Shown here in pieces: positions 45,714 to 54,529 of a stretch of DNA of 64,000 bases. A program made the translations under genes and the position numbers. This stretch comes from Hyunsoonleella flava (lineage in GTDB: Bacteria; Bacteroidota; Bacteroidia; Flavobacteriales; Flavobacteriaceae): assembly GCF_004310325.1 (NCBI RefSeq), contig NZ_SIRT01000007.1:62001-126000 (forward strand). The letters run 5' to 3'. Numbering within the stretch: position 1 is the stretch's first letter; every line of letters begins with the position of its first letter. The notes beneath the pieces were generated by a model, which was not told the origin of the DNA, did not search any database, and saw only the letters and a list, made by a program, of their open reading frames with translations.

Positions 45714-47162
45714 TTAACCTACGCTTCCTTCTAAACTTATTTCTAATAATTTTTGAGCTTCAACAGCAAATTCCATTGGTAGCTTATTCAACACCTCTTT
45801 ACTGAAACCATTTACGATTAATGCAATTGCCTTTTCGGTATCTATTCCGCGTTGGTTGCAATAGAAAATTTGATCCTCACCGATTTTACTGGTTGTGGCT
45901 TCATGTTCTATTTTTGCTGATTTATTTTTGGCTTCTATATAAGGGAATGTGTGTGCACCACATTCATTACCCATCAATAAACTGTCGCATTGCGAAAAGT
46001 TACGTGCATTTTCAGCACGGGAGTTAACCTGAACCAATCCGCGGTAACTGTTCTGTGATTTTCCAGCTGAAATTCCTTTAGAAATAATGGTTGATTTGGT
46101 ATTATTTCCCAAGTGAATCATTTTAGTTCCTGTATCTGCCTGCTGGTAATTATTGGTAACGGCAATAGAATAAAACTCACCAACCGAATTATCACCTTTT
46201 AAAACACAAGAAGGGTATTTCCACGTTACGGCAGAACCTGTCTCTACCTGAGTCCATGAAATTTTAGCGTTATTTTCACACAACCCTCGTTTGGTCACAA
46301 AATTGTAAACACCACCTTTTCCTTCTGCATTTCCTGGAAACCAGTTTTGTACTGTAGAATATTTTATTTCGGCATCGTCCAATGCAATCAATTCAACAAC
46401 TGCGGCGTGTAACTGGTTTTCATCACGACTTGGAGCAGTACAACCTTCAAGATAACTTACATAACTGCCTTCATCGGCAATTACAAGCGTTCTTTCAAAC
46501 TGCCCAGTTCCCGCTTGGTTGATTCTAAAATATGTAGATAATTCCATTGGGCAACGCACACCTTTTGGAATGTAACAAAATGAACCATCGCTAAACACAG
46601 CAGAATTTAAAGCTGCATAGAAATTATCTTTCTGTGGTACAACAGTACCTATATATTTTTTTACAAGCTCCGGATGCTCTTTGATAGCTTCTGAAATACT
46701 CATAAATATGATGCCTTGTTCAGCTAAAGTTTTCTTAAACGTCGTTGCAACAGATACAGAATCAACAACCACATCCATTGCTACGCCAGCTAATTTTTTC
46801 TGTTCATCTAAAGAAATACCAAGCTTGTCAAATGTGGCCAAAAGTTCTGGATCTACTTCATCTATACTATCGTATTTTGGCTTACTGTTTGGCGCAGAAT
46901 AGTATGAAATTCCTTGAAAATCGGGCTTTTCATAATTAACATTTGCCCATTCTGGCTCTTCCATGGCTTGCCAAACACGAAACGCTTCCAAGCGCCACTC
47001 GGTCATCCATTCTGGCTCTTCCTTTTTTTGTGAAATGGCACGAACAATATCTTCGTTCAATCCATTAGGAAAGGTATCCGATTCAATATCCGTATAAAAA
47101 CCGTACTCGTATTCCTTGGTTTTTAATTCTTCTCTTAAGTCGTCTTCTGTATATTTTGACAT
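45714..47162 (-). CDS. sufB: Fe-S cluster assembly protein SufB
   Basis: The main scaffold subunit of SufBCD, on which the cluster is built. The 482-residue length is normal. Family blocks: [14 protein letters not shown] at the start, [38 protein letters not shown], and the C-terminal [19 protein letters not shown] with the conserved Cys/Glu/His set used for cluster assembly. It follows the SufA-like gene after 51 nt containing a small palindrome. Confidence 0.97.
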
Positions 47163-47213: not shown

Positions 47214-47543
47214 TTATAGCGAAAACGATTCACCACAACCACAAGTTCTATTAGCATTTGGATTGTTGAAAACAAACCCAGTGCCATTCAAACCTCCTGA
47301 ATATTCTAGGGTTGTACCAATTAGGTATAAAAAACTTTTCTTATCAACGATTATTTTAACACCATTATCTTCAAAAACCTTATCGCCTTCTTGTTGCTCC
47401 TTATCAAATTTTAAATCATAAGATAAACCAGAACAACCACCACTTTTCACACCCACACGTATGTAGTCAGTAGTCGCATTATAACCATCATCTGTCATAA
47501 GTTCAACCACCTTTTTTTTAGCTGTATCTGAGACTTTTATCAT
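47214..47543 (-). CDS. SufA/IscA-type Fe-S assembly protein
   Basis: A 109-residue A-type carrier that accepts and delivers Fe-S clusters. The three conserved cysteines are C37 (GVKSGGCSGLSY), C101 and C103 (TCGCGESF), in the standard spacing. It is the first gene of the leftward suf transcript, with a promoter-like box 68 nt upstream. No SufR or IscR repressor gene or site is seen in this window. Confidence 0.93.
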   Translation of the reverse strand: MIKVSDTAKKKVVELMTDDGYNATTDYIRVGVKSGGCSGLSYDLKFDKEQQEGDKVFEDNGVKIIVDKKSFLYLIGTTLEYSGGLNGTGFVFNNPNANRTCGCGESFSL

Positions 47544-47798: not shown

Positions 47799-48041
47799 TT
47801 ATTTTAATTTGAAACCTAAAAATTGATGTAATCTAGATGTTCTTTTGGTTTTGAAGTAATTAGCAAAAGATTGTGTGTCGCTAGCCACCGAAAGATTCAT
47901 GATGTTACCACCATCAGTAGAAATAAAATGATTATTGCAACATTTGCAGACTAATTCTGTTGTCTCATCATCAATATTTGATACATGCTTGAAATTATGC
48001 CCAAACATGGCACAAAACTTATTTATAGGTTCATCAAACAT
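47799..48041 (-). CDS. Small zinc-ribbon protein, divergent paralogue of the 54-kb pair
   Basis: 80 residues from ATG 48041 (MFDEPINKFC); an upstream frame extends further but has no matching paralogue sequence. It has FCAMFGHNFKH near the N-terminus and CKCCNNHF in the middle, the same C-x-x-FGH and C-x-x-C layout as the two genes at 53935 and 54263, followed by a basic C-terminus. This resembles DUF1660-type small zinc proteins. It probably binds one zinc; the function is unknown. It stands alone between the suf promoter and the MbnH operon. Confidence 0.65.
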   Translation of the reverse strand: MFDEPINKFCAMFGHNFKHVSNIDDETTELVCKCCNNHFISTDGGNIMNLSVASDTQSFANYFKTKRTSRLHQFLGFKLK

Positions 48042-48171
48042 TTTTAAAATAATAGATTTGGGGACTTGCAATATCGTAAAACGAATGCATAAAACCGATA
48101 AAATGTATATTTTTTCGACGAAATACATTATAGTTTAAGAGAATCTTTCAAAGTAAGACTTTATTTCGATT

Positions 48172-49239
48172 TTAATTTTGATTGAAATCTGGGTTATTGA
48201 TGAAGTCGTAATCGGTAAGGGTAAGCAAAAATGCTTTTAAATCAGCTTTGTCTTTTTCGGTTAAACCAACACCGCCTTGAGCTACTTTTTTCATCAATGG
48301 ATCAATGGTTGGAGAGCTTTTTAATCCTTCGCTGTAATGATTGATAACGTCTTCTAAGGTTGAAAAACGACCATCATGCATATACGGTGCTGTAAATGCC
48401 AGATTTCTAAGTGACGGAGTGCGGAATTTACCATTGTCTGCCGGATCTCCGGTAACGGCTCCTAATCCTAAATCAGTAAAGGTTTCATCTAAACCATTGT
48501 TGTGAAATGCATTGTCTGTCCAAAGTGGGTTTTTATCGCTACCGTGACAATGAAAACAGTCGCCCCTGGCTTCATCCATAAACACATTAAATCCGTTAGT
48601 TTCTTCAGGAGTTAGTTCGGTTTCACCCAAAAGAAACTTATCAAATTTTGAGTTAGCTGAAATTAATGTGCGTTCAAATTGGGCAATCGCTTTGGTAACT
48701 AAAGTAGAATCAATTTCTGAAGTACCAAAAGCTTGTTCAAAAAGTGATGGGTATTCTTGATGATTTTGTAGTTTTTGGGTAACATCGCTCCAAGAGCTTT
48801 TCATTTCTAACGGATCGGTTACTGGCACAAAGGCTTGGTGTTCTAAACTAAAGGTGTTGCCATCCCAAAAGAATTTTTCATCATAATTCCACGCAAGATT
48901 AAACAAAGGCATTGAATTTCTTTTGCCTAAGCTACCGTCAATGCCATCACTAAATCTTGCGGCATCGCTGAAGGCATTTTGTGGTGCATGACAATCAGCA
49001 CAAGCCTGAGTATTATTTCCTGATAACATAGGATCGAAGAATAGCTTTTTGCCTAATGCTATACCTTCAAGGGTTTGCGCATTATCATTTGGAATAACCG
49101 GTGCAATAATATTGTCATCAAATAGCTTAGGAGTATCTAATGCACTTGGTGTAGGCGCATAACTTTCCACACTTTCATCTGTACAAGAAGCACATATGAA
49201 GCTAACAATAACGATAATATTTAAAACCTTTTTTTTCAA
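48172..49239 (-). CDS. MauG/MbnH-like di-haem c-type peroxidase lipoprotein
   Basis: A 355-residue protein with a lipoprotein signal (ICASC, C19), so periplasmic or surface-anchored. Two haem c sites: CADCH (C80-C83-H84) and CFHCH (C228-C231-H232). The C-terminal block APYMHDGRFSTLEDVINHY places Tyr302 where bacterial cytochrome c peroxidases have the axial Met. A Tyr ligand is the mark of MauG and MbnH, which modify tryptophan rather than reduce peroxide. MbnH oxidises a Trp of MbnP to kynurenine. Its neighbour, ending 7 nt upstream, is MbnP-like, which supports this over a generic peroxidase. It is the last gene of a four-gene operon. Confidence 0.85.
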   Translation of the reverse strand: MKKKVLNIIVIVSFICASCTDESVESYAPTPSALDTPKLFDDNIIAPVIPNDNAQTLEGIALGKKLFFDPMLSGNNTQACADCHAPQNAFSDAARFSDGIDGSLGKRNSMPLFNLAWNYDEKFFWDGNTFSLEHQAFVPVTDPLEMKSSWSDVTQKLQNHQEYPSLFEQAFGTSEIDSTLVTKAIAQFERTLISANSKFDKFLLGETELTPEETNGFNVFMDEARGDCFHCHGSDKNPLWTDNAFHNNGLDETFTDLGLGAVTGDPADNGKFRTPSLRNLAFTAPYMHDGRFSTLEDVINHYSEGLKSSPTIDPLMKKVAQGGVGLTEKDKADLKAFLLTLTDYDFINNPDFNQN

Positions 49240-49245
49240 AAAATG

Positions 49246-50010
49246 TTAATCTATAGATTTTAGGCTAAATACATTTTGTCCGTTTTCAAACATTAAAACT
49301 TGCGCATCAAAATTTGGCATCAATGCACTATTGAGTTGACTTAAATCCCAAGTATATGGATTTTTAAACCATTCGGCAATATTCATTTCAATGGTAATAG
49401 TTGAGTTGTTTGTAAGATCTACAGCTCCTAAGTTTACCTCAAAAAAAGTATCCTGAAACACCGGAGAGCTTCCAGAATTATCAACGGCTCTAATCGCATG
49501 ATAAGCATAGCCTTGTTCTGCATTTGTGTTATTCTCAAATTTTCCTTCTAACTGCATGTAATGATAGCCTCCACCAAGCATTTCAGGTACATTCCAAGAG
49601 GCAGAGTTTAAGTCTTGATAATTGTTATTGTAATTATCACTGTTATTAAAGCCAAAGGTAAATTTTACATTTTTATAACTTCCTGAAGGCACTGCATTTT
49701 GCAAATCGTAGGTTAATCCAGAGTTGTTTGTTACGTCTACTAAATTGTATCCAGATAGCTTTAGTTCTTCTCCAGCAGCCCCAATAAATGTTATTCTTGA
49801 TATTAAATAACGTAATTTGGTGATGCTTAAATTATCCCCTTTTTCATTAGTAAATTTGATGGTATTGAAATCTGCATTTGTTACTTCGGTGCCATCCCAA
49901 CTATGCGTAAAATTGAAAACAATGTTTGTGCTTGGGATTATTTCATTGCCGGTGTCATCGCACGACAAAAATGCAATTGTGATTAAAATTATTAAAACAA
50001 ATCTTTTCAT
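49246..50010 (-). CDS. MbnP-family copper-binding lipoprotein
   Basis: A 254-residue lipoprotein (FLSC, C17). The beta-rich body has the MbnP layout: FNFTHSWDG near the start, LRYLISRITF, and the central ASWNVPEMLGGGYHYMQLEG, which matches the family's most conserved block. Tryptophans are W38, W139, W214 and W221; one may be the kynurenine-forming residue, with W139 the best candidate by context. In the known pair, MbnP binds copper after MbnH modification. No methanobactin precursor or biosynthesis gene is visible, so this is the operon-independent type. It lies 6 nt from both neighbours. Confidence 0.83.
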   Translation of the reverse strand: MKRFVLIILITIAFLSCDDTGNEIIPSTNIVFNFTHSWDGTEVTNADFNTIKFTNEKGDNLSITKLRYLISRITFIGAAGEELKLSGYNLVDVTNNSGLTYDLQNAVPSGSYKNVKFTFGFNNSDNYNNNYQDLNSASWNVPEMLGGGYHYMQLEGKFENNTNAEQGYAYHAIRAVDNSGSSPVFQDTFFEVNLGAVDLTNNSTITIEMNIAEWFKNPYTWDLSQLNSALMPNFDAQVLMFENGQNVFSLKSID

Positions 50011-50016
50011 AGAAGC

Positions 50017-51360
50017 TTATTTTATTTTGAAAATTAAAAGATCTGAAAACCCTTTGTTTTCTGAAATATCTATATCTGAACTGCTGGATTCTCCAACAGC
50101 AATAACAGAACCGTCGTTTAATTCTGTAACGTCAAAGGCCAAATCGATATTTGAGCCACCGATACTTTTTTGCCATTTCAGATTGCCATTACCGTCCAGT
50201 TTTAAGACCAAGGCATCATTTTGACCGTTGTTATTGGAGATGTCTTCATCTGAACTGCGCGAACTTCCGGAGATAAGATAGCCTCCGTCTGAAGTTTTTG
50301 AAATGGCTCTTGCCGTGTCAAAGCTTGTGCCTCCAAAGGATTTTTCCCAAACTAGGTCTCCGTTGGGGGTTATTTTAATCATAAAAATGTCGGCTGCACC
50401 ATTGTTGTTGGATACATCTTTATCCTTACTTCTTGTATCACCAGCAACAATGAAATTCCCATCATTAGAAGCAACAATGCCCCATGCTTCATCAATTTCG
50501 GAGCCTCCAAAGGATTTTTCCCAAAGTAAATCTCCAGTTTCGGAAATACTTACTACCCAAAAGTCATACGTACCTTTATTGTTTTTTATGTCCACATCAT
50601 CACTATCAGAAGACCCAACAATGATGTAGTTGTTATTTGTGGTCTGTACTACACCGTAAGGGGTGTCGGTAAAAGTGCCTCCAAAAAATTTACTCCATTG
50701 TTTATTGCCGTTTGCATCAAGCTTTATGGCCCAATAATCACCTCCGGCATGTAAGATTCCTGAGGTTTTACTATTGCCCTGGCCGCCTGAAGCAGATACA
50801 TCCAAAACTCCCGTTATTAAATAACCATTATCGTTGGTTTCGATTAAGGCATATCCGATATCCGCACCTAAAAAACCAAAGGATTTTTGCCAAGATATAT
50901 TGCCAGAGGCATCCAGTTTGCATAACCAAAAATCGTTGGCTCCAGCATTGTCAGAAAGATTTCCATCTGTGCTTTTGCTGTAACCTAAAATGGCGTATCC
51001 TCCGTCTGTTGTTTGAATAATATCATGGCCCCTGTCGTCATCTGTTCCTCCATAGGTTTTTTGCCATTGCAAAGCATCATGCGGGCCAAATTTCAAAACC
51101 CAAAAATCAAAGGATGAATTTGTTTTGTTTACAACATCGCCGTCCATACTTTGTACATAACCTAAAATGGCGTATCCACCATCTGAAGTTTTAACGACAG
51201 ATTGCGCACTTTCATTTAAACTCCCACCGAGGGTTTTGACAAATTCTGTGGTTTTTAAAATAGGAGATTCCGAGGCATTGTCATCATTATTTGAGCAATT
51301 GAGCAGCAAAGCAAAAAATGCTAGAACTGAATAAAATTGATATGGGTTATTGATTTTCAT
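50017..51360 (-). CDS. Seven-repeat beta-propeller lipoprotein
   Basis: 447 residues from ATG 51360; the longer frame from 51387 would overlap the upstream gene. A hydrophobic N-terminus ends in LLLNC (C21; Asn at -1 is unusual for a lipobox). Seven repeats of about 57-65 residues follow, each with W-x-K-x-x-GG, a DGG-Y-I-x-G strand, an acidic loop (such as DEDISNNNG) and a D-x-W/L-x-x-K strand. Seven units suggest a complete propeller. It is encoded in the MbnP/MbnH operon, where it may hold a substrate or partner; no catalytic motif is seen. Confidence 0.78.
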   Translation of the reverse strand: MKINNPYQFYSVLAFFALLLNCSNNDDNASESPILKTTEFVKTLGGSLNESAQSVVKTSDGGYAILGYVQSMDGDVVNKTNSSFDFWVLKFGPHDALQWQKTYGGTDDDRGHDIIQTTDGGYAILGYSKSTDGNLSDNAGANDFWLCKLDASGNISWQKSFGFLGADIGYALIETNDNGYLITGVLDVSASGGQGNSKTSGILHAGGDYWAIKLDANGNKQWSKFFGGTFTDTPYGVVQTTNNNYIIVGSSDSDDVDIKNNKGTYDFWVVSISETGDLLWEKSFGGSEIDEAWGIVASNDGNFIVAGDTRSKDKDVSNNNGAADIFMIKITPNGDLVWEKSFGGTSFDTARAISKTSDGGYLISGSSRSSDEDISNNNGQNDALVLKLDGNGNLKWQKSIGGSNIDLAFDVTELNDGSVIAVGESSSSDIDISENKGFSDLLIFKIK

Positions 51361-51379
51361 TTGAAGCTGAATCAAGTGG

Positions 51380-52738
51380 TTATTCACTTTTTCTAACTAC
51401 AAAGAGCCCTCGGTTAATATCGCTAATAACAATATTTCCGCTTTCAAAATAAGGATATACATTCCAAGCGCCATCAAAGGCAGTAGCATCATCTTCGGGG
51501 TAGGTGTCAAAGTAACCGGTCTCGACGTATGATTTGTTGTCTATGTTACTGATGTCTAATACCCGCAAACCAGCTCTGTAACTTGCTTGAAAATAAGAGT
51601 TGCCTTTAATGTAGCCATTATGGTCTATTGAGGGGTTGGATGCCAGATAATCAAAATGGTATAATGGGTTATCTAAATCGGTAAAATCAAAAGTGATAAT
51701 TCTGGTATTGTTTCCAACTCTAATTTCATCTAGCTCATCACCCAAAATAAAATACCTCATATCTTCGGTGAACCACCCTTGGTGTGCGTACCTTACATTT
51801 GCATACGATATGGTTGAAATTTTCACTGGATTATTTTTATCGGTAACATCAGCTATAACTACTTCGTTTTCATTGCTTCCAATTAATATTTCTCTTCCGG
51901 TGTAGTCGCTGTCCGGTCCATTATAAGTTACAACTTGAGCATCATGAGAATAACCACCTTCAGCGAATCCACCTTCAATAACAGGAGATTTAGGGTTTTG
52001 GATATTGATAAAAATAGGCCCACCAGCATAAGTAGAGTTTCTGTTTCCGCCAACGGTATAAGCATAACCGCTTTCCTCATTGATAACAACGTTGTGTGCT
52101 CGTCCTATTTCTTCAAGGCGTGCATCTGCAGCAAAAGTTTCGGGAGGATTACTTACGTTTCTCAATCGGGTTAAATCAAATACTTGCAAACCATGGCTGT
52201 CTTCCCCTTGATTGTTATCGGCAACAATAAATGCGTGATTATTATAAACCTTTACATCACGCCATGGACTAGCCGTAGTAGCTGTTGGAACATTACCTAA
52301 ATAGACAGGATTTTCTACATCCGAAATATCCACAAAAGCAGTGTTTCGGTCTGTGGCAATAAGGGCATATTCCTTACCGGTATCAGAGTCTGTCCAACCC
52401 CAAGAATCGTTGGCCGCAGCGGCACCAAATGTTTCAAGAGGGATATTAAGTACTAAATCATATCCATTACAGGGGTAAATACCAGCAAAACCTCCTTCAC
52501 ATTTTACAACAGCGGTTGTTTCTGTAGTGTCACAAACGTCTCCAATACCATTGTTGTTAACGTCTTCTTGATTTGGATTAGGTGTGCTAACACAATTGTC
52601 AATATTATCGGCAATCCCGTCGTTGTCTGTGTCAATGATAATCACGGGTTCTACAGTTTCAGTGTTACAAGAGTAGAACACTAAAGAAACAACAAAGGCA
52701 AAAGCATAGACTTTTTTTATCTTTTTTAAAATAGGCAT
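51380..52738 (-). CDS. Choice-of-anchor B family lipoprotein (LVIVD-like propeller) with thrombospondin type 3 repeat
   Basis: 452 residues from ATG 52738, giving a signal with FYSC (C24). Then a calcium-binding thrombospondin type 3 repeat (DTDNDGIADNIDNC to NNNGIGDVCD), followed by the choice-of-anchor B region with LVIVD-like blades such as TAFVDISDVENPVYLG, AHNVVINEESGYAYTVGG and FDGAWNVYPYFESGNIV. Family members often sit beside MbnP/MauG-type genes. It is first in the four-gene operon, so the promoter should be in 52739-52890, shared with the divergent thiL. Role unknown; extracellular display is likely. Confidence 0.85.
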   Translation of the reverse strand: MPILKKIKKVYAFAFVVSLVFYSCNTETVEPVIIIDTDNDGIADNIDNCVSTPNPNQEDVNNNGIGDVCDTTETTAVVKCEGGFAGIYPCNGYDLVLNIPLETFGAAAANDSWGWTDSDTGKEYALIATDRNTAFVDISDVENPVYLGNVPTATTASPWRDVKVYNNHAFIVADNNQGEDSHGLQVFDLTRLRNVSNPPETFAADARLEEIGRAHNVVINEESGYAYTVGGNRNSTYAGGPIFINIQNPKSPVIEGGFAEGGYSHDAQVVTYNGPDSDYTGREILIGSNENEVVIADVTDKNNPVKISTISYANVRYAHQGWFTEDMRYFILGDELDEIRVGNNTRIITFDFTDLDNPLYHFDYLASNPSIDHNGYIKGNSYFQASYRAGLRVLDISNIDNKSYVETGYFDTYPEDDATAFDGAWNVYPYFESGNIVISDINRGLFVVRKSE

Positions 52739-52891: not shown

Positions 52892-53938
52892 ATGATAGAA
52901 GATAAAAATCAGCAACGAACAGAATTAAGTAATCTTGGGGAATTCGGACTTATAGAACACCTCACTAAAAACTTCAAAATAAACCAGAAATCAACTGTTA
53001 AAGGTATAGGGGATGATGCGGCAGTATTGAATTTTGAGGATAAACGGGTAATAGTTACAACTGATTTGTTGGTGGAAGGTGTGCATTTTGATTTAAGTTA
53101 TATGCCATTAAAACACCTTGGGTACAAGGCGGTAATGGTAAACTTATCTGATGTTTATGCTATGAATGGGCAGGCAACACAAATTACCGTATCAATTGCC
53201 GTATCCAATCGGTTTCCTTTAGAAGCGTTGGAAGAGCTATATGCAGGTATAGAAACAGCAGCTAAGATTTATGATATTGATGTAGTTGGCGGAGACACAA
53301 CCTCCTCGACAACTGGATTGCTAATTTCAGTTACGGCATTGGGCACGGTATCTGAAAATGATGTGGTTTACCGAGAAGGAGCAAAACCCAATGATTTATT
53401 AGTGGTTTCCGGAGATTTGGGTGGCGCCTACATGGGGCTTCAGGTTTTAGAAAGAGAAAAAGAAGTATATAAAGTAAACCCCAAAAATCAGCCTGATTTA
53501 AGCATGTATACTTATATCATAGAGCGCCAATTAAAACCAGAAGCACGAAAGGATATTGTGAAGTTGCTACAAGATTTAGGTGTTAAGCCAACATCCATGA
53601 TAGATATAAGCGATGGCTTGTCCTCTGAGATATTGCATCTGTGTAAGCATAGCGATGTAGGATGTGATTTGTATGAAAACAAAATTCCTTTAGACCCCCA
53701 GGTGATTTCTGCATGTGAGGAGTTTAACATCGATAGTACTACAGTAGCACTTAATGGTGGAGAGGATTATGAGTTATTGATGACCATAAGTCAAGAGGAT
53801 TATCCCAAGATTAAAGGCAATCCAAACTTATCTGTTATAGGGTATGTTACCGAGAAATCTGCAGGTAAGCATTTGGTAACAAGGGCCGATACCAAAATTG
53901 AATTAAAAGCTCAGGGCTGGAAAAATTTTGAAGACTAA
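52892..53938 (+). CDS. thiL: Thiamine-monophosphate kinase
   Basis: Phosphorylates thiamine phosphate to thiamine diphosphate. It has 348 residues of the PurM-like fold: FGLIEHLTKNF at the start, IGDDAAVLN with the metal Asp pair (about 41-48), the substrate loop VGGDTTSSTTG (about 131-141), and SMIDISDGLSSEILHL. The complete set of nucleotide and metal-binding residues supports function. No thiamine riboswitch or other thi genes are nearby. The last bases overlap the convergent zinc-ribbon gene so that both stop codons share CTAA. Confidence 0.95.
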   Translation: MIEDKNQQRTELSNLGEFGLIEHLTKNFKINQKSTVKGIGDDAAVLNFEDKRVIVTTDLLVEGVHFDLSYMPLKHLGYKAVMVNLSDVYAMNGQATQITVSIAVSNRFPLEALEELYAGIETAAKIYDIDVVGGDTTSSTTGLLISVTALGTVSENDVVYREGAKPNDLLVVSGDLGGAYMGLQVLEREKEVYKVNPKNQPDLSMYTYIIERQLKPEARKDIVKLLQDLGVKPTSMIDISDGLSSEILHLCKHSDVGCDLYENKIPLDPQVISACEEFNIDSTTVALNGGEDYELLMTISQEDYPKIKGNPNLSVIGYVTEKSAGKHLVTRADTKIELKAQGWKNFED

Positions 53939-54186
53939 GCCGTAGCCAGAAGATTTTCACTCTGCTTTTTGTTGAAATTCTTAAGGCGCATTCTCCTTTT
54001 CGCATGGATGCGTTCCAACACGTCGTTAATCTCTTTGAATTTTGGGGTGAGTTCTGTTAAATTTCCCTTGCTGTTTGTGGTGAGTTCCTTTTTGCAATTG
54101 CTGCAAGTGTATTCTTTTACGTGATACGTTACATGTCGAGACACTTTATAATCATGTCCAAACACCTTACATTGAATGTTTTTCAT
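53935..54186 (-). CDS. Small zinc-ribbon protein, tandem paralogue 1
   Basis: 83 residues: CKVFGHDYKVS (C6), a HVTYHVKEYTCSNCKKEL segment with a CxxC pair, then a conserved tail TELTPKFKEINDVLERIHAK ending in basic residues. It is very similar to the gene at 54263-54529 and more distantly to 47799-48041, so it is one of three paralogues. The layout CxxFGH plus CxxC suggests one bound zinc, as in DUF1660-type proteins, and the basic helical tail could contact nucleic acid; both points are inference. It ends on the thiL stop codon. Confidence 0.7.
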   Translation of the reverse strand: MKNIQCKVFGHDYKVSRHVTYHVKEYTCSNCKKELTTNSKGNLTELTPKFKEINDVLERIHAKRRMRLKNFNKKQSENLLATA

Positions 54187-54262: not shown

Positions 54263-54529
54263 TTAACAAATCGACGAAGCGAATGTTTTTTTCTTTAAAC
54301 GATTCATTCTTGATTGATGAATACGTTCTAGTATAGCATTTATCTCTTTAAACTTAGGGGTAAGTTCAACCAAATTGCCATTACTGCTTGTGGTTAATTG
54401 TTTCTTACAATGTGTGCAAGTGTACTCTTTAACGTGTCGGGTTACCTTTTTAGAGACTTGATAGTCATGACCAAAAAGGCTGCAATACATCTTAGGAATG
54501 AAAGCATGGTTAGTACTTTTGTTTTGCAT
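54263..54529 (-). CDS. Small zinc-ribbon protein, tandem paralogue 2
   Basis: 88 residues from ATG 54529; ATG 54490 (MYCSLFGHDY) is a shorter alternative matching the paralogue better at the N-terminus. It shares with its neighbour CSLFGHDYQVS, HVKEYTCTHCKKQLTTS and ELTPKFKEINAILERIHQ. The gap between the two genes is 76 nt, consistent with tandem duplication. It has the same zinc-site layout and basic tail, and no recognised function. Confidence 0.7.
   Translation of the reverse strand: MQNKSTNHAFIPKMYCSLFGHDYQVSKKVTRHVKEYTCTHCKKQLTTSSNGNLVELTPKFKEINAILERIHQSRMNRLKKKTFASSIC

Follow-up and report, generated by a model that had tools for sequence, protein, structure and literature searches.

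A conserved flavobacterial lipoprotein cassette combining two propellers with a divergent MbnP and an MbnH-like di-haem enzyme

What does an MbnP/MbnH pair do when it lies outside any methanobactin locus and behind two genes for propeller lipoproteins, and, as the most testable point, which tryptophan (Trp) would its di-haem enzyme oxidise? This question is raised by a cassette of four genes (CAB, Prop, MbnP and MbnH) of Hyunsoonleella flava, located in a 64,000-nt stretch of contig NZ_SIRT01000007.1 that was analysed as a whole and is called the window here. All four lie on the minus strand, in the order CAB (52738-51380), Prop (51360-50017), MbnP (50010-49246) and MbnH (49239-48172, with a TTG start), separated by 19, 6 and 6 nt, and these coordinates verified the order and the gaps of 6 to 19 nt given by an earlier sequence-only reading of the same DNA. 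The operon is confirmed as real, and it is both conserved and modular. What is new here is that the window MbnP is a divergent type without the WxW motif and its preceding Met, and with an extra invariant His. We also considered as a novelty the occurrence of MbnP/MbnH outside methanobactin loci, and this was rejected since it is already in PMC3621798, where the pair is described as conserved far beyond methanobactin producers. In the genome of H. flava itself, profile searches found one match each to PF20243, TIGR04039 and TIGR04312, and no match to the MbnB-type family PF05114 (MbnA and MbnC were not searched for), which in this single genome fits the claim that no methanobactin genes are visible. 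Against PHROGs, the single match was weak and led to a family without an assigned function.

The cassette and its site in Flavobacteriaceae

CAB is a propeller lipoprotein of the choice-of-anchor B type that carries a thrombospondin-3-like (TSP3-like) repeat at its N-terminus, and it scores 542 bits against TIGR04312, whose cut-off is 100. Its AlphaFold2 model (pLDDT 88.9) has as best Foldseek match, and best solved match, the phosphotriesterase of Sphingobium TCM1 (5hrm/5ioj; E 6.8e-12 for 5hrm), followed by a WD40 protein (E 1.3e-8); unlike that phosphotriesterase, CAB is a lipoprotein and carries a TSP3-like repeat. The TCM1 enzyme is a seven-bladed propeller that houses a binuclear metal centre, going by the title of a paper cited in PMC11656708 (its reference 11). 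Five histidines of CAB (His182, 215, 265, 319 and 373) are near-invariant in 118 aligned rows, and where MbnP/MbnH is missing from the locus (18 CABs), His182 is present in 16 and the other four in all 18. Tandem duplication of CAB is seen in some loci (L037, L049, L167 and others), with up to five CAB-like open reading frames in L037. Prop is a seven-repeat beta-propeller lipoprotein whose repeats begin at seven near-invariant glycines (G45, G104, G162, G227, G285, G343 and G401); its best sequence match among solved structures is the propeller of CylK (7fh6, E 2.7e-30), to which it is sequence-related, but Prop is a stand-alone lipoprotein. The identities that had been proposed for both propellers thus stood, as did the lipoprotein-like signals, all four proteins beginning with a signal sequence that ends, by eye, in a lipobox-like Cys.

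The linkage of MbnP to the two propellers, for which a survey across Flavobacteriaceae had been suggested, was found in every family locus of the divergent MbnP type, hereafter type A. PF20243 was matched by 97 of the 395 phylum genomes searched and by 57 of the 120 from the family, the latter at 64 places, of which 35 encode type A (all with GGGYH) and 29 a canonical MbnP. The order CAB, Prop, MbnP, MbnH is present in 35/35 type-A loci, namely L032-L062 (n=31), L194-L196 and the window, with CAB of L047 cut by a contig end. A wider scan, which covered 84,980 species and was deliberately weighted towards type A through patterns drawn from a type-A alignment, gave 468 relatives, and the same gene order was found in 79 of the best 80 of these 468, the 80th locus (L170) having a contig end inside Prop; some of the 80 are genomes of the family survey. 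Wide flanks were available for 25 of the 29 canonical loci of the family (L063, L064, L174-L193 and L197-L199), and CAB and Prop precede the pair in the same order at four of them (L175, L187, L189 and L193), while neither was seen in the 54 loci inspected from other families (L200-L253, some of which run into a contig end). The arrangement is not a matter of chance, because it is conserved across Flavobacteriaceae.

The cassette lies at one particular site. Its divergent neighbour thiL (52892-53938, plus strand) marks one edge, and sufA (47214-47543) and sufB (45714-47162), both on the minus strand, mark the other; all three are outside the cassette and are named by sequence resemblance. Among the next four downstream genes suf genes are found in 102/110 loci, and of the eight loci without them, three stop early at a contig end, and the remaining five (L104, L106, L113, L121 and L154) show other genes. 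A thiL or sufB match was obtained in 119 genomes, and both stand divergently on one contig in 106, after setting aside 13 genomes (ten with the genes on different contigs, one without a thiL match and two in another arrangement). MbnP lies between thiL and sufB in 38 of the 106, in gaps of 5.0-12.4 kb, and is missing in 68, from which one genome with a 95-kb gap (G050) was set aside. Inspection of 28 of the remaining 67 gaps showed CAB and Prop in 17, CAB only in one and neither in ten; the other 39 measure 0.45-1.1 kb and are counted as empty because they are too short for sufA together with CAB or Prop. The site is therefore full in 38 of 105 genomes, holds CAB-Prop in 17, CAB in 1 and is empty in 49, so that, at this site, MbnP/MbnH was never seen without the propellers and the propellers do occur without MbnP/MbnH. 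The propellers had been described as extra parts added to the pair, a description that sits poorly with these 17 genomes, which keep both of them there without MbnP/MbnH, and because of this they look like the core of the site.

Two lineages of the pair share this slot. In the MbnH tree type A forms one clade (starred, 100), and the MbnH proteins of L175, L187, L189 and L193 fall in a distant Flavobacteriaceae clade (starred, 98), within a subclade (starred, 99) that also includes L192, where no CAB or Prop was seen. The Prop tree places the loci bearing MbnP/MbnH on one side and those with CAB-Prop only on the other (starred, 100/98). That CAB-Prop gained MbnP/MbnH twice was considered and rejected as a settled conclusion, since the Prop tree does not reject type A as one clade (p 0.455); because this tree also groups the bearing loci, replacement in place is equally possible. 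Either the pair was gained once and then replaced in place, or it was gained twice on related backbones.

A divergent MbnP with a variable residue 139

Membership of the MbnP family was upheld both by profile and by fold. The window MbnP scores 97.6 bits against PF20243 (gathering cut-off 27), and the only PDB matches of its structure model (81 sequences, pLDDT 85.3) at E <= 0.001 are six chains of 7l6g, the MbnP of Methylosinus trichosporium, with E values of 8.8e-8 to 6.0e-7. The canonical MbnPs of the family (n=29) contain M-x-W-x-W followed by xxG[YF], with the first W and a downstream His in 29/29, and a joint profile of both types aligns the motif and the His with 7l6g (E 3e-4). In type A, the motif reads W139-x-V/W-P-x-x-L-GGGY-H150, with a four-residue insertion and the added H150; in the alignments, W139 falls on the leading W of the canonical WxW, and H171 on the His that is invariant in canonical MbnP. 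The window has W139-N-V-P-E-M-L-GGGY-H150, with V141 in place of the second W and hence no WxW, together with H171, W214 and W221. In a 2021 paper on MbnP, the first Trp of WxW was reportedly converted to kynurenine, with a His and a Met binding copper; in the window MbnP the His is kept as H171, the Met before WxW is absent and H150 is new. By eye, the Met two residues before W139 is absent in 35/35 type-A rows. The TIGR04052 model, named "MbnP_like_WxW", gives no match to the window MbnP at E 0.01, as against 3/3 matches for canonical Bacteroidota proteins, at 45-56 bits and under the cut-off of 140.

For conservation of residues, we used the 114 rows of type-A MbnP that have a paired MbnH, L162 (also with phenylalanine, Phe, at residue 139) being excluded with its MbnH cut. 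H150, H171, W221 and M231 are each present in 114/114, W214 and W38 are each present in 111/114, and the second W of WxW is Val in 106 and Trp in 8. Residues 155 and 169 covary perfectly (Asp155-Asn169 in 44 rows, Glu155 with another residue in 70), with 15 changes each on the MbnH tree and only two independent pairs on supported branches, and Phe139 occurs only together with Asp155-Asn169. This pair was considered as a switch specific to Phe139 and rejected, and its pairing looks structural because the same D...N is visible by eye in canonical MbnP. Outside the family, the locus L232 (8122-9982) encodes, without CAB or Prop, a GGGYH-type MbnP that keeps the Met (M-E-W-P), together with its MbnH, and this protein is a possible intermediate between the canonical type and type A.

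Residue 139 itself is Trp in 94/114 rows and Phe in 20/114, which corresponds to 84 and 19 of the distinct sequences (n=103) and to 63 and 18 of the closest 81 sequences. The Phe139 group includes Winogradskyella, Bizionia, Seonamhaeicola algicola, Hyunsoonleella ulvae and H. aquatilis, and at least six changes at this residue are needed on the MbnH tree, two of them forced by starred branches. The paired enzymes have identical residues at C80-x-x-C83-H84, C228-x-x-C231-H232, W125, Q135, P139, E145 and Y302 in the 20 Phe139 and the 94 Trp139 rows, that is, in all the haem and catalytic residues listed. In other families, the first Trp is kept, by eye, in 31 of 32 MbnP stretches, the exception (L211b) being a second MbnP-like gene, so the loss of the Trp with retention of the enzyme is repeatedly seen in type A only. 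The sequence-only reading had carried over to this operon the chemistry in which MbnH makes kynurenine on MbnP and the product binds copper; given that residue 139 is Phe in 20/114 rows with the MbnH catalytic residues unchanged in 114, and that WxW and the preceding Met are absent, kynurenine formation at Trp139 with copper bound by the product cannot hold across this family as a whole, and for the window, where the Trp is kept, it is possible.

Which tryptophan the enzyme may oxidise

The explanation that we favour, whose chances as a whole we judge to be evenly balanced, is that of an inherited lipoprotein cassette in which MbnH oxidises a Trp of an operon partner and in which the MbnP site has been remodelled. 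The cassette would have been inherited vertically in Flavobacteriaceae at the thiL-suf site, encoding cell-envelope lipoproteins that may act in a joint complex, with the propeller pair as its core and CAB probably bearing a His-rich metal centre. In one large branch, an MbnP/MbnH pair of either of the two distantly related types stands behind the propellers. MbnH would probably react with peroxide to reach a high-valent di-haem state, and would then probably oxidise a Trp in a partner from the same operon, most likely MbnP, whose remodelled site, with H171 kept, the canonical Met and second Trp lost and H150 added, would probably bind a metal, perhaps copper. Because several lineages have Phe at residue 139 and keep the MbnH catalytic residues, conversion of W139 into kynurenine is probably not obligatory family-wide, and the target may lie elsewhere, at least in the Phe lineages, candidates being W221 or W214 of MbnP or a Trp of a propeller. 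Few protein substrates are known among MauG-superfamily enzymes, and here the presumed modified residue is Trp or Phe depending on the species while the enzyme keeps the same catalytic residues, which makes the target findable by comparing the native proteins of close relatives, such as Hyunsoonleella pacifica (Trp) and H. ulvae (Phe).

We suggest keeping in mind several points that weigh against this explanation. The window MbnP keeps W139, as do 94 of the 114 rows, and there the canonical reaction may hold. As many as 15 of the 20 Phe139 rows form one clade, and the MbnH trees come from quick searches. MbnH residue 124, beside W125, is Phe in 87/94 Trp139 rows and in 5/20 Phe139 rows, and residues 96, 130 and 134 also differ between the two groups, so that plain kinship, or a function that has shifted, weakened or decayed, may account for the enzymes of the Phe lineages. 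The TM-scores of the MbnP model against 7l6g are moderate (0.50-0.56 by query length). The fold of CAB is a widespread one, with 861 PDB matches at E <= 0.001, as is usual for a propeller, and in a profile search the phosphotriesterase came first without significance (E 0.24 and 0.40). The site is syntenically fixed, with thiL as upstream neighbour in 104/104 loci having an upstream gene in view, and the shared order must then be in part plain inheritance; conserved order alone as proof of joint function was rejected as the sole argument for this reason. Finally, in the literature searched we found no experiments on any member of the cassette.

A first alternative keeps the canonical chemistry, with MbnH turning W139 into kynurenine, the product binding Cu(I) at the surface together with H171 and perhaps H150, and the Phe lineages being secondary losses. 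It agrees with the MbnP fold, with the alignment of W139 and H171, with the predominance of Trp at residue 139, and with eight rows that keep W-x-W in another spacing, and the change beside W125 in the MbnH of most Phe rows is what a decaying function would leave. In CorA, two His and a water bind Cu(I), and a kynurenine derived from Trp lies nearby (PMC3912023); His150 and His171 could bind Cu(I) in the manner of the two His of CorA/MopE. Nevertheless, the Val that replaces the second W, the missing Met, the failure to match TIGR04052 and the 20 Phe139 rows with their complete set of MbnH haem and catalytic residues speak against it, and we hold this alternative to be doubtful. A more far-reaching reading is a new protein-maturation system at the flavobacterial surface, in which the Trp target of a MauG/MbnH-type enzyme has shifted from the established kynurenine position to W221 of MbnP, invariant in and specific to type A, or to a Trp of CAB as a His-rich metallo-propeller, yielding an undescribed amino-acid-derived cofactor or metal site that would activate a surface metalloenzyme; we consider it unlikely.

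The enzyme could also be a mere surface peroxidase that removes peroxide, with MbnP and the propellers as carriers or scaffolds, given that the di-haem CCP/MauG domain (PF03150, 196 bits) is a general peroxidase fold and that, without need of a Trp target, Phe139 would be accommodated. The profile scores argue against this, since TIGR04039 ("MbnH family di-heme enzyme") is the best NCBIfam model at 260.2 bits, ahead of the MauG model (198 bits) and others. The two CxxCH motifs and the MbnH/MauG type read from the sequence stand, while the score remains below the equivalog cut-off of 362.85 for MbnH proper, a failure that is weak evidence against that assignment because six further MbnH-like proteins of Bacteroidota fall short of it as well, at 200-292 bits. 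The best PDB match is 6e1c ("Di-heme enzyme"), presumably the MbnH of M. trichosporium, which scores 178 bits, the runner-up reaching 135. Y302 is invariant and aligns with a Tyr of 6e1c, and by spacing we assume that it is the equivalent of Tyr294 of MauG, and that W125 is the equivalent of the inter-haem Trp93 of MauG. The six-coordinate haem has Tyr-His ligation in MauG versus Met-His in canonical peroxidases, and Trp93 between the haems is a MauG feature (PMC6405878). With the strict pairing with an MbnP-fold protein added to this, a peroxidase and nothing else appears highly improbable. Of equally slight probability is that the four genes are mere neighbours at a stable locus, to which the fixed position beside thiL, the 17 genomes with propellers without MbnP/MbnH and the pairs found elsewhere without propellers would lend themselves, but against which stand the presence of MbnP/MbnH at the site in 0/50 genomes without Prop (49 empty, 1 CAB only) versus 38/55 with Prop, the gaps of 6-19 nt, and the acceptance of two distantly related pairs in the same slot and order, which favours joint function.

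In several other Bacteroidota, two MbnH-like genes are present per fetched locus (L205, L209, L220, L228, L221, L234 and L239), and the paired copies of L205, L209, L234 and L239 fall in different parts of the MbnH tree.

Related systems, export signals and neighbouring genes

Among the closest known systems is the MbnP/MbnH pair itself (TIGR04052/TIGR04039; MopE/SACCP and CorA/CorB), with which the cassette shares the MbnP fold, an MbnP gene followed directly by MbnH, a MauG-like di-haem enzyme, the invariant His (H171) and, in the window, the first Trp; it differs in lacking WxW and the Met of MxW, in the four-residue insertion with GGGYH150, in having Phe for Trp in part of the relatives, and in the two propeller genes upstream of the pair. 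Across a large group of flavobacteria, the cassette connects MbnP/MbnH with what is probably a metallo-propeller core, and it gives a handle on the role of choice-of-anchor B proteins. MbnPH-like genes have been reported in operons with copper genes (PMC9426467). In our literature search, which left most subscription journals outside, we found nothing tying MbnP/MbnH to choice-of-anchor B or propeller proteins. SBP56 proteins are propellers. In the mtoX-SCO1-mauG operon, the copper-dependent methanethiol oxidase of the SBP56 type, with conserved His ligands, is encoded beside a MauG-like gene (PMC5739008), and the likeness to our cassette lies in a conserved-His protein encoded next to a MauG-like di-haem enzyme; however, the best structural match of CAB is another propeller, and the cassette contains MbnP and no SCO1 gene. 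Type-A MbnH appears to keep an inter-haem Trp, if W125 is presumed to be its equivalent. BthA of Burkholderia lacks this residue, but is likewise a MauG-like di-haem enzyme outside a mau operon, with Tyr-His ligation, and its gene always lies downstream of one for a putative phosphatase with no assigned function; the extract of that paper mentions no MbnP partner (PMC6405878).

With respect to export, the stretch that follows the lipobox Cys is partly acidic in MbnP (C-DDTGNE), Prop (C-SNNDDN) and MbnH (C-TDESVE) and less so in CAB (C-NTETVE), the first three loosely resembling, and CAB less, the export signal SDDFE of F. johnsoniae (PMC5080379). At least two D/E at positions +2 to +7 were found in 64/71 MbnP, 50/70 Prop, 28/38 MbnH and 25/49 CAB lipobox-positive sequences, out of 80, 80, 79 and 84 examined, respectively, with a crude finder that mis-picked some Cys. 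Surface exposure of the cassette proteins is a prediction. As a flavobacterial promoter 5' of CAB, one TANNTTTG at 52828-52821 was considered and rejected, the window containing 95 such motifs versus 96 expected.

In one relative, sufB (G114:C5:24143-25587) has in-frame stops, which means either a pseudogene or a fault in the assembly. Near the cassette, the window encodes small proteins with paired CxxC motifs (47799-48128, 53935-54186 and 54263-54529), and a cluster of such proteins lies beside it in 95/111 loci.

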